DNA from: Roseobacter litoralis Och 149 | GTDB taxonomy: Bacteria; Pseudomonadota; Alphaproteobacteria; Rhodobacterales; Rhodobacteraceae | Assembly (NCBI RefSeq): GCF_000154785.2 | Contig: NC_015730.1 | Span: 3,100,001-3,164,000 of the forward strand | Length of the DNA stretch: 64,000 bases | Direction of reading: 5' to 3' | Shown: positions 3,068 through 30,589 of the stretch, in pieces | Numbering within the stretch: the first letter of the stretch is position 1 | Layout: every line of letters starts with the position of its first letter | Position numbers and translations under genes: made by a program | Notes under the pieces: model-generated | Told to the model about the DNA's origin: nothing | Databases searched by the model: none | What the model saw: the letters and a program-made list of their open reading frames with translations, nothing else

Positions 3068-4593
3068 TGTTACGTCGTGAACTTCTCAAATCTCTGGTGG
3101 CTGTGGCTGCCCTGCGCCCGACCGTTCTGGCAGCGCAGGAACCCGGGCTGCAATCGGGCGCACCAACGGCCTTCGATGCGCAAAAGGTCAGAATGCGCGC
3201 CAAGGCGCTGGCGGAAAAACCCTATGCGCCGCGCCCGCTGATCCCGGAAAGCTGGCGCAACCTGAGCTATGATCAATACCGTAAAATCTGGTTTGACGGG
3301 CGCAATGCGCTTTGGGAAAACACAGACGGCCCGCAGCGCGTAGATGTGTTTCCACCCGGTCTCTATTTTCCGCAGCCGGTTGAGATCAACGTCGTCGAGA
3401 ATGGCAGCGCGCGACCGCTGAAATTTGACATGGGTGTGTTTGACAGCACGGATAAATTTCCTGATGTCGAGATAGATGAAACCTTGGGGTATTCCGGCCT
3501 GCGACTGCGCGCGGAACTCGAAGAGCCCGGTATTTTTCAGGAATACGCGGTTTTTCAGGGTGCCAGCTATTTTCGCGGCATCGGTACGGGCGAGACATAC
3601 GGTCTCTCCGCGCGGGGGCTGGCGTTGAAAACCGCCGATCCTGAGGGCGAAGAATTTCCCGATTTCACCGCCTTTTGGCTCGAAACGCCGCAGCCCGGTG
3701 CGCCTGATGTGGTGTTGCACGCGCTGCTCGATGGTCCCAGCTGCACCGGGGCTTACCGGTTCGTCATCACCCATGGCAAGACGCTGACCATGCAGGTCGA
3801 GGCCGAGATTTTCGCCCGCGAGACGCTGACCCACATTGGTATCGCGCCTCTGACATCCATGTTTTTGTTTGATGCCACGATGCGCGAGCGGTTTTCCGAC
3901 TTTCGCCCGGCCGTGCATGACAGCGATGGTTTGATGATCCATAATGGTGCAGGCGAAACCATCTGGCGCCCGCTTGCCAATCCCAAGAACCTGCAGATCA
4001 GTGCTTTTACCGACGATGACCCCCGTGGCTTTGGCCTGATGCAACGGGCGCGGGCCTTCCGCGACTTTGCCGATCTCGAAGCGCTTTACCACAACCGCCC
4101 CGCCCTTTGGGTCACACCGGGCGAGGGATGGGGACCGGGGGCGGTCACGCTTGTTGAAATCCCCGCTGATCTGGAAATCTACGACAACATCGTGTCTTAT
4201 TGGCGCCCCGCAACCCCTGTGCCTGCGGGCGAAAGCCACCAGATGTCCTATCGTCTGGACTGGGCCGACGATCCTGCCCCCCGGACAGGCATGCCGCTGC
4301 GCGTCAGCGACACGGCGATGGGCGCGCGCCCGGAGGGCGGAATTGTCGTCGCTATTGATTTCGAAGGCCGCGAAGATGTGCCCGACGACCTGAGCCAGCT
4401 TGATATTGTCTTGCGCAGCAGCACCGGTGAGCTGTCACAAGGGCTTGTGCAACGCAATCCGGAGACCGGCGGACCCCGCCTTGCCTTCACCTTCCACCCG
4501 CAAGAGGCGGATTTGGTCGAGTTCCGCGCCCAGTTGCGCTTGCAGGATGCGCCCCTCTCCGAAATCTGGCTTTACCGCTGGACGCGCGCATGA
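3067..4593 (+). CDS. opgG: Periplasmic glucan biosynthesis protein, OpgG/OpgD family
   Basis: A 508-residue exported protein of the MdoG/OpgG/OpgD family. The N-terminus LRRELLKSLVAVAALRP carries a twin-arginine-like motif before a hydrophobic stretch, closer to the Tat-exported OpgD than to Sec-exported OpgG. The family landmarks PYAPRPLIPESWRNLSYDQY near residue 55 and FRGIGTGETYGLSARGLA near 180 are present. Family members act in the periplasm on the newly made glucan backbone; E. coli OpgD has been shown to be a beta-1,2-glucanase. Lying between opgC and opgH with overlapping ends (ATGA at 4590-4593) supports a role in the same pathway. Whether it is functionally G-type or D-type is not settled, so the symbol is provisional. 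Confidence 0.87.
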   Translation: MLRRELLKSLVAVAALRPTVLAAQEPGLQSGAPTAFDAQKVRMRAKALAEKPYAPRPLIPESWRNLSYDQYRKIWFDGRNALWENTDGPQRVDVFPPGLYFPQPVEINVVENGSARPLKFDMGVFDSTDKFPDVEIDETLGYSGLRLRAELEEPGIFQEYAVFQGASYFRGIGTGETYGLSARGLALKTADPEGEEFPDFTAFWLETPQPGAPDVVLHALLDGPSCTGAYRFVITHGKTLTMQVEAEIFARETLTHIGIAPLTSMFLFDATMRERFSDFRPAVHDSDGLMIHNGAGETIWRPLANPKNLQISAFTDDDPRGFGLMQRARAFRDFADLEALYHNRPALWVTPGEGWGPGAVTLVEIPADLEIYDNIVSYWRPATPVPAGESHQMSYRLDWADDPAPRTGMPLRVSDTAMGARPEGGIVVAIDFEGREDVPDDLSQLDIVLRSSTGELSQGLVQRNPETGGPRLAFTFHPQEADLVEFRAQLRLQDAPLSEIWLYRWTRA

Positions 4594-25877: not shown

Positions 25878-27413
25878 TCAATTCACCTCGTCAGGTTCTG
25901 CCAAACTGAGGGGGGCGGCTGGCAAGGCGCGCAGGTCATCGACGCGTAGCCCACCCGTGGGCTTGGCAAGACGATTGCGCACCACCCACACCAACCTGTT
26001 CTGCGCGCGTGTGATGGCCACATAGGCCAGACGTTTCCACAACGGCTGCCCCGCCTCTGTTCGCCCCATGCGCGCAGCCGCATACAAATCGGGCGCAAAA
26101 ACCTGCACAGTATCCCACTGGCTGCCTTGTGCCTTATGGATCGTCACAGCCGCCCCATGCAGAAACGTCGCGCCCATGCGTGCGGCAAAAGGGATAAACG
26201 GTTCTTCTTCGTCAGGTTTTTCAATCTTTACGATCGACGCGGCAGAGACCTGCGGGTCTTCGGCCCCCATCACATGCAACCTGCTGAACCCCGGCTTGCG
26301 CCCTTCGCCCAGATAGATCACCTGCGCGCCTTTGATCAGCCCGCGCGCCTCCAGATCGAGCCGTTTCTTGCGGTGTTTCAAAGGCAGCTCCAACCCGTCG
26401 CAGATCAGCGGTTCGCCTTCCAGCAGCGCATCTTCGGGCGCGCCATGAACCTGACGAAACGCGTTGATCAAGCGGATCCGGGTCGCGTTGCGCCAAACCA
26501 GCACCGGGCTGCGCGCCATCAGGTCTACTTCAACCCGCTGACCCCAGACGACACGTTCGTCGCGACCTGCCGCATCTTCGATCATGCGTTCGAAGGCCTC
26601 AAACCCAATATCCGGGTCAGACAGCGCATGGGCCAGATCAAGAATCGGATTGTCTGCTTCCTGTCGATGCACACGGCTCAATGTCAGAATGCGGGGGGCC
26701 GGGAGTTTGTCGAACACCATGGCGCCAGACTGATTAACCGGCGCCAACTGGGCCGGATCACCAAACAGCAAAAGCGTGGGGAAAATCTCACGAAGGTCTT
26801 CGAACTGCTTATCATCCAGCATGGAGGATTCGTCCACAAACCCGATGTCCAGCGGCTCTTCGCGACGCTTCCATCCCGTGATGAAATCGGACCCCCGTAA
26901 TCCTGCGGCCGCCAAAGCGCCGGGAATGGATTTATTTTTGGCGTAAAACGTTTCGGCGCGGCTCAGAGCCTCTTCGCTCAACGCTTCTGTTTCGGGTTTG
27001 TCGCCGGTGCCTGCCAACCATTCCGCAATCCGCTCATATTCGGGGTCATAGACAGGCGTGTATAAAATACGGTGTATCGTCGTCGCCGGAACCCCCCGCA
27101 GGCGCAGTACAGAGGCGGCCTTGTTTGTAGGGGCAAGGATGGCCAGCGTGCGCCTGTCGCGTTTTTTGCGCGGCTCATAGTCCCCTGAGACCACATCGAC
27201 GCCTGCATCCTGAATGGCCTTGTAAAGCTCTGCAAGAAGTAGGGTTTTTCCGGAACCTGCCTTGCCGATGATCGCCATGACCGCTGCCTTGGAACTGCGC
27301 GGTGGCATCAGGAGTTGATCTTCGAGGTTTATGCCTGCTTCACTGAGCAAAGCCGTGACCGCGTCAAAAGCGACGGCTTGGTCATCAGAGTATTTCACAA
27401 CAGAGGCTTCCAT
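25878..27413 (-). CDS. RecD/Dda-like ATP-dependent DNA helicase
   Basis: A 511-residue superfamily 1 helicase. Walker A is GKAGSGKT at residues 50-57, motif Ia/Ib includes ILAPTNKAASVLR, Walker B is GFVDESSML, motif III LLLFGDPAQLAPV, motif IV-like SRVHRQ, and the C-terminal UvrD_C_2 part has TIHKAQGSQWDTV and AYVAITRAQNRLVWV. This architecture matches the AAA_30 plus UvrD_C_2 helicases related to phage Dda and RecD2 core, lacking RecBC-binding regions. It probably unwinds DNA in repair or replication restart; the precise pathway is unknown. It lies 52 bases downstream of luxI on the same strand but has no known connection to quorum sensing. Confidence 0.87.
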   Translation of the reverse strand: MEASVVKYSDDQAVAFDAVTALLSEAGINLEDQLLMPPRSSKAAVMAIIGKAGSGKTLLLAELYKAIQDAGVDVVSGDYEPRKKRDRRTLAILAPTNKAASVLRLRGVPATTIHRILYTPVYDPEYERIAEWLAGTGDKPETEALSEEALSRAETFYAKNKSIPGALAAAGLRGSDFITGWKRREEPLDIGFVDESSMLDDKQFEDLREIFPTLLLFGDPAQLAPVNQSGAMVFDKLPAPRILTLSRVHRQEADNPILDLAHALSDPDIGFEAFERMIEDAAGRDERVVWGQRVEVDLMARSPVLVWRNATRIRLINAFRQVHGAPEDALLEGEPLICDGLELPLKHRKKRLDLEARGLIKGAQVIYLGEGRKPGFSRLHVMGAEDPQVSAASIVKIEKPDEEEPFIPFAARMGATFLHGAAVTIHKAQGSQWDTVQVFAPDLYAAARMGRTEAGQPLWKRLAYVAITRAQNRLVWVVRNRLAKPTGGLRVDDLRALPAAPLSLAEPDEVN

Positions 27414-27465
27414 GGCGTGACCCTACAGGCAGGCCACGCCAGGAACCAGTGAGGAACGGTCTGTT

Positions 27466-28104
27466 TTAGCCTGCCTGTGCGAGTGGTTGTTCGGATGTGG
27501 TCCCAAAAGCCCGATTGAACCAAAGGCGGGACAATTCAAGCGACAGCCCGGCCTTGGCTGCCACTTTGGCCTGTGCATCCGGGGTGAATTCCCAAAGGCC
27601 GACGCTGATCTTGTCACGCCCATTGCCTGTGCTGCCCAGAACTTCTGGCGAAGAGCCGATCAGCCGATAAATGCGCACCATCCGTGCGTCGAAAACACCG
27701 GCAAAATGCGCGACGTCAAAGTTCTGCATGATCTCACCACCGGCCAGCATCAGGGCTGCAGCCACCTTGCTTTGTGCACCCCGGCTGAGGCAAAAGCGCG
27801 TGCATTCCCAGATCAGCGGGCTGGTAATCGTGCCGCCCCCCAGAATGTCCGTGAAATGTTCGTTGATCATCGTGCGCCCTGTCGTCGGCAGAAAGCGCAT
27901 TGAACCACCATGAGAGCCATCCGCGTTTTCCCAGATCACATAAAGGGGGTTCAGCGCATCATATTGATCCCGTTCAAAGCCATCTTCGTCGATGTCGACG
28001 TCCCATCCTAACCTTGTCTTGAACTGATCGGCGCGGTCCCGGAACATGGAATCGCGCAGTGTCGGGTGTTGGTCCAGTTGGTCAGCGTATAGGTAACGGA
28101 TCAT
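27466..28104 (-). CDS. Acyl-homoserine-lactone synthase, LuxI family
   Basis: A 212-residue LuxI-type enzyme that makes N-acyl homoserine lactone from S-adenosylmethionine and an acyl donor. The invariant residues are all present: Arg24, Phe28, Trp34, Asp46, Asp49, Arg70, Phe84, Glu100 and Arg103. Chain length of the product cannot be read. The start is ATG 28104 with GAGGAAAA upstream; a longer frame to 28173 has no support. It follows the broken luxR gene by 116 bases, and a lux-box-like palindrome lies in that gap. The enzyme itself looks intact even though its linked receptor is interrupted. Confidence 0.95.
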   Translation of the reverse strand: MIRYLYADQLDQHPTLRDSMFRDRADQFKTRLGWDVDIDEDGFERDQYDALNPLYVIWENADGSHGGSMRFLPTTGRTMINEHFTDILGGGTITSPLIWECTRFCLSRGAQSKVAAALMLAGGEIMQNFDVAHFAGVFDARMVRIYRLIGSSPEVLGSTGNGRDKISVGLWEFTPDAQAKVAAKAGLSLELSRLWFNRAFGTTSEQPLAQAG

Positions 28105-28169
28105 TTGTTTTTTCCTCTGGTCGGTTCGTTTGACGACCAAAGGAATAGCTTGAGGATGCTTAACAGCCG

Positions 28170-28191
28170 CCAACCCGCACGCGCGTGTTGG
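28170..28191 (-). promoter_or_regulatory. Lux-box-like palindrome upstream of luxI
   Basis: A 22-base imperfect inverted repeat with arms CCAACCCGCAC and CCAACACGCGC (9 of 11 positions pair), centred about 76 bases before the luxI start and after the luxR stop. LuxR-type regulators bind 18-22 base dyads at such positions, so this may be the site through which luxI is activated. It is G+C-rich and could instead be a transcript hairpin; there is no T-run after it. Confidence 0.4.
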
Positions 28192-28220
28192 TAACCTTTG
28201 GCCCTCAAAACGCCAAAGAC

Positions 28221-28940
28221 TCAGACCACAATCAGGCCTCTGCTGAGGGCCCGGGCGACCGCATGTGTGGTATTGGCGGCGCCTAGTTTGAACCGCGCAC
28301 TTTCGATGTAAACGCGCAGTGTATGTTCAGAAATAGAAAGAGTTTCAGCGACTTGCGCCCTGCTGTATCCGATGGCAAGCAGCGTCATCGCATCAACCTC
28401 GCGCGGCGAGAGGGATTGTGATTGCTCCGGTGTTTTGTTCGGCTCGAACTCCAGCGCCTTTTGGTTAAAATAGTGAGCGATCAGGATCAGCTCTCTCCGG
28501 TTGCTCTCCGTGAATTCTTCCCATTCCTCATCGTCGCAACTGGTGTTTACCGTAAAGAGCGCGAACTGGCCGTTAGGTCCTCTGATGGGAATCGAATAGC
28601 CCTGATTCCCTAACCCAAATGTTGCAGCTTCTGCGCGAAACGCTCTTGCAGCTTTGCTCGACCAGTCCAATCGCTTCCAGTCCACAGGGTGGAATCTCTG
28701 GTAACAACCGATCACGACCGGATCTATACGAATGTAGTTCTGTTCTTGGTACCGCGCCGCTCACTCAAGGGGGTATGTTCCGTAGCCGTATTGATCACCA
28801 GCGCTGTCGACCCAATGATAGACCATATTCTCGACGCCGTAATGACCCCGAAGCGCGAATACCGCCTCATTGATTCCTTCAAGCGTGTCCGCTTGCTCCA
28901 GCGCCGCTAATACCTCCTCCACTACTTTGTTCGTCGCCAT
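28221..28940 (-). pseudogene. LuxR-family autoinducer receptor with in-frame TGA at the conserved Trp57 position
   Basis: Reading from ATG 28940, the frame encodes 59 residues of an autoinducer-binding domain ending TYPLE, then TGA (28761-28763), then continues in the same frame for 180 codons to the end. After the stop, all landmarks are present: Tyr four residues on, Asp-Pro (in IRIDPVV), the second Trp (in PVDWKRL), and a complete GerE helix-turn-helix (LSPREVDAMTLLAIGYSRAQVAETLSISEHTLRVYIE). The TGA occupies the place of TraR Trp57, one of the ligand-pocket residues invariant in the family; TGG to TGA is one base. Either the gene is inactivated, or a truncated DNA-binding product is made from GTG 28715 (164 residues, lacking most of the ligand pocket), or the base is a sequence error. 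It is linked to an intact luxI downstream. Confidence 0.88.
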
Positions 28941-29094
28941 GAGCGTTGTTCTGCGTCCTTTCATGAAGCGAGGCAATCTCTGCCAATGCAACAATTGCAG
29001 TATCGTCCAACTGTTCTGCAAGTACAGGCAGGTCGTTGGCCGTGGCAAAAGTTTTTAGGTCCGTTAGAACGTCCAGTATCCAGTCGCTTCGCAT
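28879..29094 (-). CDS. Small protein overlapping the luxR start
   Basis: A 71-residue acidic protein starting MRSDWILDVLTDLKTFATAND and predicted helical for its first 50 residues, with a Gly/Ser-rich tail. I believe similar small proteins precede luxR genes in other Rhodobacterales, but this is from memory and no function is known. It starts at ATG 29094, after GAGAGG, and its last 62 bases overlap the start of luxR in another frame, so the two may be translationally linked. A CtrA-type site lies 21 bases upstream of its start. Confidence 0.65.
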   Translation of the reverse strand: MRSDWILDVLTDLKTFATANDLPVLAEQLDDTAIVALAEIASLHERTQNNAHGDEQSSGGGISGAGASGHA

Positions 29095-29114
29095 GGTAGA
29101 CTCGCCTCTCAAAG

Positions 29115-29130
29115 GTTAACGAATGATTAA
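29115..29130 (-). promoter_or_regulatory. Candidate CtrA-binding site upstream of the luxR locus
   Basis: On the minus strand the sequence reads TTAATCATTCGTTAAC, a full match to the CtrA consensus TTAA-N7-TTAAC. CtrA is the response regulator that controls motility, gene-transfer-agent and quorum-sensing-linked genes in Rhodobacterales. The site ends 21 bases before the start codon of the small gene that heads the luxR locus, so it would overlap the core promoter or leader; such placement fits repression or a very short leader. Confidence 0.55.
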
Positions 29131-29243
29131 GAATACTCTACCATTTAGTAACCACGTTTAAAATTCGCGGATATATACTCCCCAGAAATAGGGAAGCGCG
29201 ATTTTCTAACCTGTTGATCCTAAAGAGCGTCAGTTTTTTCAAA

Positions 29244-29279
29244 CAAAAAACCCGCGACTCACTGGGGTGATTCGCGGGC
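29244..29279 (-). terminator. Intrinsic terminator of ccr
   Basis: On the minus strand an inverted repeat GCCCGCGA/TCGCGGG with a loop of about 14 bases (29251-29279) is followed by TTTTTTG (29244-29250), thirty bases after the ccr stop codon. It separates ccr from the quorum-sensing locus that reads in the same direction. Confidence 0.8.
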
Positions 29280-29308
29280 TTTCGAAGGTAAAACGACTCG
29301 GTAGGCGG

Positions 29309-30589
29309 TTAACCGCGCGTCTCCAAAGCATCCTCGAGTGTACGCAGTCCTGTTGTCGGAGCCTGCACCAGCACCGACATGTTGCCGGGCTTATGCTGAT
29401 TGCGCAGCATCTTCATATGCGCTTGCGGTAGATCTGCCCAGCTAAAGACTTCGGACATGCAAGGATCCAGTCGACGCTCCAGCATCAGCTTGTTGGCGGC
29501 ACTCGCCTGTTTGAGATGGGCAAAGTGACTACCCTGCAAACGCTTCTGATGCATCCACATGTAGCGCACGTCAAACGTCAGATTAAAGCCCGTGGTCCCC
29601 GCACAGATGACCACCATGCCGCCTTTTTTCGCCACGAAGGTAGAAACCGGGAACGTGCTTTCGCCGGGGTGTTCGAACACCATGTCGACATTCACGCCCT
29701 TACCGGTGATGTCCCAGATAGCCTTGCCGAACTTGCGCGCCTCTGTAAACCATGTGGCATATTCCGGCGTATTCACTGTCGGCAACTGGCCCCAACAGTT
29801 AAAATCCTTGCGGTTAAGGACACCTTTCGCGCCGAGGTCCATCACGAACTGGCGTTTGCTTTCATCCGAAATCACGCCGATTGCATTGGCACCTGCGGTG
29901 TTGATCAGCTGGATCGCATATGACCCCAGTCCACCCGATGCGCCCCAGACCAGCACGTTCTGTCCCGGCTTGAGGTCATGCGGCTCGTGACCAAACAGCA
30001 TCCGGTACGCCGTTGCCAGTGTCAGCGTGTAGCACGCAGACTCTTCCCAGGTCAGATGTTTGGGGCGGGGCATAAGCTGTTGGCTTTGAACGCGTGTGAA
30101 TTGCGCGAACGACCCATCCGCGGTTTCATAACCCCAAATACGCTGCGATGGCGAATACATCGGATCGCCCCCGTTACATTCCTCGTCATCGCCGTCGTCC
30201 TGGTTGCAATGCACGACCACTTCATCGCCCACTTTCCAGCGCGTCACACGATCTCCGACCGCCCAAACGATCCCGGCCGCATCCGACCCGCATATCTGAT
30301 AAGGTTCATCGTGACTGTCAAAAAAGCTGATTGGCTTACCCAAGGCGGCCCAGACACCGTTGTAATTTACCCCGGCCGCCATCACCAATATCAGCACGTC
30401 CTGGCTGTCAAGCTCGGGCACATCCACGACTTCCTGAAGCATCGCCTTGTCGGGTTCACCATGCCGTTCGCGGCGAATGGCCCAAGCATACATTTGCTTT
30501 GGCACATAGCCCATCGGTGGCATCTCACCGACCTCATAGAGATCTTTTTCGGGTGCTTCGTAATGGGCGACGGTCGTATCCAGTGCCAT
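29309..30589 (-). CDS. ccr: Crotonyl-CoA carboxylase/reductase
   Basis: A 426-residue MDR-superfamily enzyme that reductively carboxylates crotonyl-CoA with NADPH and CO2 to (2S)-ethylmalonyl-CoA, the key step of the ethylmalonyl-CoA pathway for acetyl-CoA assimilation. YVPKQMYAWAIRRERHGEP, VMAAGVNYNGVWAALG, CGSDAAGIVWAVGD, the NADPH loop VWGASGGLGSYAIQL and FEHPGESTFPVSTFV are diagnostic of Ccr rather than general alcohol dehydrogenases. GGAG lies six bases before the start. A terminator follows. The pathway's mutase gene is divergent from the acyltransferase next door. Confidence 0.96.
   Translation of the reverse strand: MALDTTVAHYEAPEKDLYEVGEMPPMGYVPKQMYAWAIRRERHGEPDKAMLQEVVDVPELDSQDVLILVMAAGVNYNGVWAALGKPISFFDSHDEPYQICGSDAAGIVWAVGDRVTRWKVGDEVVVHCNQDDGDDEECNGGDPMYSPSQRIWGYETADGSFAQFTRVQSQQLMPRPKHLTWEESACYTLTLATAYRMLFGHEPHDLKPGQNVLVWGASGGLGSYAIQLINTAGANAIGVISDESKRQFVMDLGAKGVLNRKDFNCWGQLPTVNTPEYATWFTEARKFGKAIWDITGKGVNVDMVFEHPGESTFPVSTFVAKKGGMVVICAGTTGFNLTFDVRYMWMHQKRLQGSHFAHLKQASAANKLMLERRLDPCMSEVFSWADLPQAHMKMLRNQHKPGNMSVLVQAPTTGLRTLEDALETRG

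Follow-up and report, generated by a model that had tools for sequence, protein, structure and literature searches.

A Single In-Frame TGA at the Pocket Tryptophan Codon of a Linked luxR Gene in Roseobacter litoralis OCh149: A Probable Recent Loss of the Receptor

Introduction

A LuxR-type gene next to an apparently intact acyl-homoserine lactone (AHL) synthase gene is broken by one stop codon in the genome of Roseobacter litoralis OCh149. The locus raises the question of whether the receptor has been lost, whether one base of the genome is wrong, or whether a receptor or a part of it is still made across or behind the stop. The window, that is, the whole stretch of DNA analysed, comprises 64,000 nucleotides (positions 3,100,001 to 3,164,000 of NC_015730.1), and all coordinates below refer to it. 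The strain represents the Roseobacter type species according to the genome report (PMC3141670). If the stop is real, AHL work in OCh149 starts from a strain that is receptor-null at the ancestral locus but also has further synthases and receptors; if not, the reference genome contains an error at an important position.

The gene and its neighbour, RLO149_c030690/c030680, are counted among the quorum-sensing systems of R. litoralis in a review, where they are listed as a pair of topology B4 and the luxR gene is named without remark in the parts consulted (PMC3824088). The words truncat-, fragment, interrupt, frameshift, and nonsense are all absent from the main text of that review, as are quorum, luxR, and homoserine from the main text of the genome report (PMC3141670). 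No report of the interruption was found in the main texts of the literature searched.

The Interrupted Reading Frame

The luxR-type gene of the R-beta group (RLO149_c030690, the tag being taken from Table A1 of PMC3824088) lies on the reverse strand at 28221–28940. It forms a frame of 240 codons, 239 and the terminal TGA, in which the only internal stop is a TGA at codon 60 (28761–28763). The full LuxR-type frame with one TGA is thus confirmed, as the original prediction had described it. In a genome profile search, the Pfam profile Autoind_bind ran through the stop with 133 bits and “1 TGA” inside, the top of four matches in the genome. The part 3′ of the stop matched positions 48–148 of the 149 in this profile (about two thirds) and positions 1–55 of the 57 in GerE (47.5 bits), in agreement with the claim that a normal LuxR protein with a complete helix-turn-helix (HTH) is encoded around the stop. 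The short open frame 5′ of it (28761–28940, reverse strand, 59 residues) matched no Pfam family when searched alone. A reading frame this long, with homology along its whole length, is not a product of chance. By descent the gene counts as a LuxR-type AHL receptor only if X is read at the TGA, which places the autoinducer-binding domain and the C-terminal GerE/LuxR HTH in a single frame; an uninterrupted frame for a full-length receptor is lacking owing to the TGA at codon 60.

The six conserved pocket residues of TraR are W57, Y61, D70, P71, W85, and G113, as given in a part of PMC11655674. Codon 60 was aligned with a tryptophan of QscR, RhlR, and LasR, and the numbering “Trp57” rests on those alignments and not on the TraR row. 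The stop occupies this position in the R. litoralis gene, and the residues corresponding to Tyr61, Asp70, Pro71, and Trp85 follow it as Y, D, P, and W in the alignments, so that the predicted placement of the stop at the pocket tryptophan and the persistence of these four residues both hold. Every one of the 126 other loci read has Trp in this column. They consist of 18 loci from congeners, the 80 top-ranking of 473 loci, and 28 from a family search; some genomes occur in more than one collection (for example, L012 and L041), and the loci are not all independent. The position is not absolute across LuxR proteins, since CerM has Phe there (PMC11655674, seen in part).

A luxR match was found in all 19 Roseobacter genomes, and R. 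litoralis was the only one in which it was interrupted. The best match was free of internal stops in 18 of 18 congeners, with 82–93% identity in 15 and 52–53% in three (G003, G009, and G015; loci L026–L028), the latter being inside the 126 loci and outside the codon counts given below. The nearest relative, R. denitrificans, carries an intact copy with 93% identity. Over all 127 loci, an internal stop anywhere in luxR was seen in three: R. litoralis, L067 (TAA at codon 50, locus position 3130), and L087 (TGA at codon 93, a different Trp, locus position 1997). The last two are metagenome-assembled genomes, titled Sulfitobacter and Roseobacter between them; luxI is without stops in L067 and truncated in L087, where only its end matches. 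In a family spread of 394 genomes, luxR was matched in 228 (E-value 1e-50), and among the 150 matches listed stops occurred in two, R. litoralis and G199. The G199 match contains two TAG codons. Natural breaks of this receptor are hence rare but not unique.

The searches returned no second R. litoralis sequence. Among the best 120 of 3812 proteins there was no entry above 90% identity; since even the R. denitrificans protein is absent there, it is uninformative that no intact R. litoralis entry appears. The plasmid collection gave no match, and the viral contigs gave no relative. Relatives that all carry Trp, coupled with a strain-specific artefact, had been put forward as grounds for giving up the prediction; as to the first part of this, the relatives do all carry Trp.

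Constraint and Age of the Lesion

Codon changes on the two sister branches were polarised with three congeners, using only L010–L014; a further 18 changes were not polarisable. The R. litoralis luxR branch carries 32 synonymous and 7 nonsynonymous changes, against 35 and 6, respectively, in R. denitrificans. The corresponding counts for luxI are 35/5 and 26/1. Relaxed constraint 3′ of the lesion, the mark of a decayed pseudogene, was not observed, as this part shows 28 synonymous and 3 nonsynonymous changes in R. litoralis versus 26 and 4 in R. denitrificans (Fisher p = 0.71). Had the gene been unconstrained for the whole branch, the expectation for this part would be about 91 nonsynonymous changes; three were observed. 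The 95% bound on the unconstrained share of the branch is 4.4% for codons 61–239 if the sister count is taken as background and 8.6% if no background is assumed, and for the whole gene 7.2% and 12.5%, respectively; these bounds are rough, being based on uncorrected synonymous changes and one sister. Since the R. litoralis branch is as constrained as its sister, the lesion takes up at most about 4–13% of it, or is unreal, or does not abolish function; the stop is thus recent, or false, or harmless.

Codons 1–59 gave 4 synonymous and 4 nonsynonymous changes on the R. litoralis branch versus 28 and 3 after the stop (p = 0.022). A control with 89 of 91 congener pairs (two had fewer than five differences, and L015 was left out) showed that a mean of 41% of the differences within a pair falls in codons 1–59 (range 17–88%). 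Decay of this segment was rejected, as the contrast vanishes against the control (4 of 7 there, P = 0.30).

Recent Loss, Error, or a Residual Product

The interruption most likely has an ordinary explanation and does not represent a new kind of gene. We consider it probable that the sequenced OCh149 has a genuine nonsense mutation of very recent date in the core luxR gene of its B-topology luxRI pair and that the allele is a receptor null. Translation would end after 59 residues, leaving no ligand-binding, dimerising, or DNA-binding receptor from this gene, while the adjacent gene probably continues to supply LuxI; the strain would then produce this signal without its linked receptor. For this reading we infer a correct base call, the absence of a functional fragment, and continuing luxI expression. 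It is supported by the stop itself, the intact flanking frame, the frame of luxI, the 18 uninterrupted copies in 18 congeners, and the constraint on nearly the whole branch. The natural luxR breaks in L067 and L087 and the cerM nonsense suppressor described below also speak for it, as do the 77 pseudogenes counted on the R. litoralis chromosome versus 20 on that of R. denitrificans in the genome report (PMC3141670). Some limits apply to a recent loss. One wrong base in the assembly would look identical, and a recent lesion would leave no other trace; the searches gave no second R. litoralis sequence for comparison; and full constraint after the stop would be equally expected from read-through or from a working C-terminal fragment.

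The main rival is a sequencing or assembly error, in which case R. litoralis really has an intact gene and the finished genome carries one false base. We regard this as unlikely. The interruption is found in one of 19 genomes of the genus and both of its sides evolve like an intact gene, as an error would have it; nevertheless, the genome was obtained by Sanger sequencing at 7.97× with manual editing (PMC3141670, seen in part), making a lone substitution at any given base unlikely, and the locus is without a homopolymer. When the 64-kb window was compared coarsely with R. denitrificans, no other well-matched gene showed a clear interior stop, with the segment 58911–59584 as a possible exception; an isolated error would fit this picture. 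This search for breaks was crude: of 62 R. denitrificans ORFs that have a counterpart, 13, including luxR, drew a flag in the window, as did 6 of 63 in the reverse direction, and eight of the 13 (luxR included) were inspected while the other five and the reverse six were judged from the table. Most of the seven other inspected ORFs looked, by eye, like antisense ORFs, over-long starts, near-end stops, or weak matches.

Far behind the error stands read-through of the UGA, programmed or tolerated, by which some full-length receptor would be made, perhaps depending on growth state. We hold this to be very improbable, and give as little credence to its variant in which ribosomes pass a real TGA rarely and to an extent that varies with conditions, so that little receptor is made and the strain responds to its own signal only in some growth states. 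Constraint does persist 3′ of the stop (28 synonymous, 3 nonsynonymous), and the stop lies inside an otherwise complete frame. On the other hand, a stop occurs in the codon-60 column of none of the 126 other loci, leaving no selected signal visible, and no tRNA-Sec was found. The base after the TGA is G, which is not known as the leakiest context for read-through. TGA serves as an ordinary stop nearby, ending three of the nine genes checked (luxR, the helicase, and the small ORF described below). Selenocysteine was rejected and a recoded TGA found no support, as the Rfam tRNA-Sec model gave eight weak matches, all of them ordinary tRNAs by ARAGORN (one is tRNA-Trp with anticodon CCA), and the column holds a stop in 0 of 126 loci.

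Translation could also restart at the GTG at 28715 or at another start and yield a ligand-blind, DNA-binding fragment, constitutive or dominant negative, as the prediction had suggested; this too is most doubtful. The hypothetical ORF from the GTG at codon 76 (28221–28715, reverse strand, 164 residues) does contain a GerE/HTH domain behind a cut autoinducer-binding domain, and constraint 3′ of the stop is intact. The looser codons 1–59 relative to the later ones also pointed this way until set against the congener control. No Shine-Dalgarno-like sequence was seen in the 20 bases before the GTG, and besides R. litoralis only one of 14 readable congeners has GTG at codon 76, so that the suggestion comes out weak; moreover, nothing separates selection on such a fragment from a very recent lesion. 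A cut ligand-binding domain is expected to misfold in LuxR proteins generally. Neither read-through nor a working C-terminal fragment has positive support.

Other Quorum-Sensing Genes and Known Systems

The R. litoralis genome analysed has 4,745,450 bases in four contigs; Table 1 of PMC3141670 gives replicons of 4,505,211, 93,578, 83,129, and 63,532 bases for OCh149 and 4,133,097 bases for the R. denitrificans chromosome. Three well-scoring LuxI genes (5.2e-22 to 4.7e-15) were found in R. litoralis, the most in the genus, where the others have at most two. By a count that rests on the autoinducer-binding domain, three further genes of this type are present, each without interruption. It was proposed that the strain makes a signal that its own linked receptor cannot read. 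For the linked receptor this stands if the base call is right; for the whole cell it does not follow, since these three LuxR-type genes and two further well-scoring LuxI genes exist.

The other genes show some order of their own. A second luxR–luxI pair, divergent, is found at L003/L008 (contig C3 of genome G000, about 3.676 Mb). L005/L009 (about 3.701 Mb) consists of a related luxR and a cut-off luxI remnant, followed by what is by eye a transposase-looking ORF. L002 (about 3.709 Mb) is a luxI listed without a luxR in the review (PMC3824088, seen in part). Lying within about 35 kb, the three look like a duplicated, partly decayed quorum-sensing island.

The closest known systems are the B-topology luxRI pairs of R. 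denitrificans (RD1_1638/1639), Phaeobacter (PGA1_c03880/c03890), and Dinoroseobacter shibae (DSHI_2852/2851), which belong to the same protein group. We take the Phaeobacter pair to be pgaR/pgaI and the D. shibae pair to be luxR1/luxI1. R. litoralis shares with the B-topology roseobacters the order crotonyl-CoA reductase, luxR, luxI, helicase, whereas the stop at codon 60 occurs only in the R. litoralis copy. PgaR of Phaeobacter is presumably of the same group as the R. litoralis protein. It has only a minor effect on pgaI, as stated in a part of PMC3907830, and a lost receptor would therefore not necessarily shut the synthase down.

Loss-of-function alleles of lasR in Pseudomonas aeruginosa resemble the present case in that a receptor is lost at strain level, reportedly recurrently for lasR. 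Strains that have lost lasR often keep the synthase gene. The lasR alleles come from a clinical and environmental pathogen in which selection has been studied, whereas R. litoralis offers one type strain known from sequence alone. TrlR of Agrobacterium, a truncated TraR, is likewise a LuxR protein shortened by mutation; TrlR is dominant negative because its ligand-binding and dimerisation domain is retained, while in R. litoralis only 59 residues precede the stop. The cerM allele Q189amb is another nonsense mutation in an alphaproteobacterial LuxR homologue, a suppressor that arose in the laboratory in a cerI mutant of Cereibacter sphaeroides; it differs in affecting another LuxR, with a late stop in the HTH and the synthase deleted beforehand (PMC11655674, seen in part).

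Neighbouring Features

The synthase gene luxI (I-beta, RLO149_c030680; 27466–28104, reverse strand) encodes 212 residues without stops and is 95.8% identical to the R. denitrificans copy, so that the AHL synthase claimed to be next door is indeed there and looks intact. luxI adjoins luxR in all 19 genomes of the genus, and the matched luxI is without stops in each. Farther away, the luxI match falls into two pieces in L069, L072, and L125, as if by a frameshift, with luxR free of stops; the pieces are one base apart in L072 and L125, which may be the same genome.

The surroundings are those of B topology (R-beta/I-beta), with a crotonyl-CoA reductase before luxRI and a helicase after it. The upstream neighbour, a crotonyl-CoA reductase-like gene (29309–30589, reverse strand), has the domains ADH_N and ADH_zinc_N, its exact enzyme name being taken from context, and the ATP-dependent helicase-like gene lies downstream (25878–27413, reverse strand). 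Between luxR and luxI, a GC-rich palindrome (28173–28192), identical in R. denitrificans, is a candidate LuxR-type binding site. Promoter and terminator scans over 27300–29400 found nothing. Elsewhere in the window, the segment 58911–59584 is 70% identical to its counterpart, contains two stops, and could be a broken gene.

A conserved small ORF of 71 residues (28879–29094, reverse strand) shares the initial 62 bases of luxR but reads them in a different frame. No Pfam match passed the cut-off (best E 0.13), and NCBIfam gave none. Most of the 120 relatives listed are called “hypothetical protein” and one is named a flagellar/type III secretion chaperone. A relative is present at 127 of 127 luxR loci, and by eye the ~48 N-terminal residues hardly vary within the genus, also at loci whose luxR is only 52% identical. 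The small ORF may encode a partner of this LuxR group, either regulatory or coupled to it in translation.
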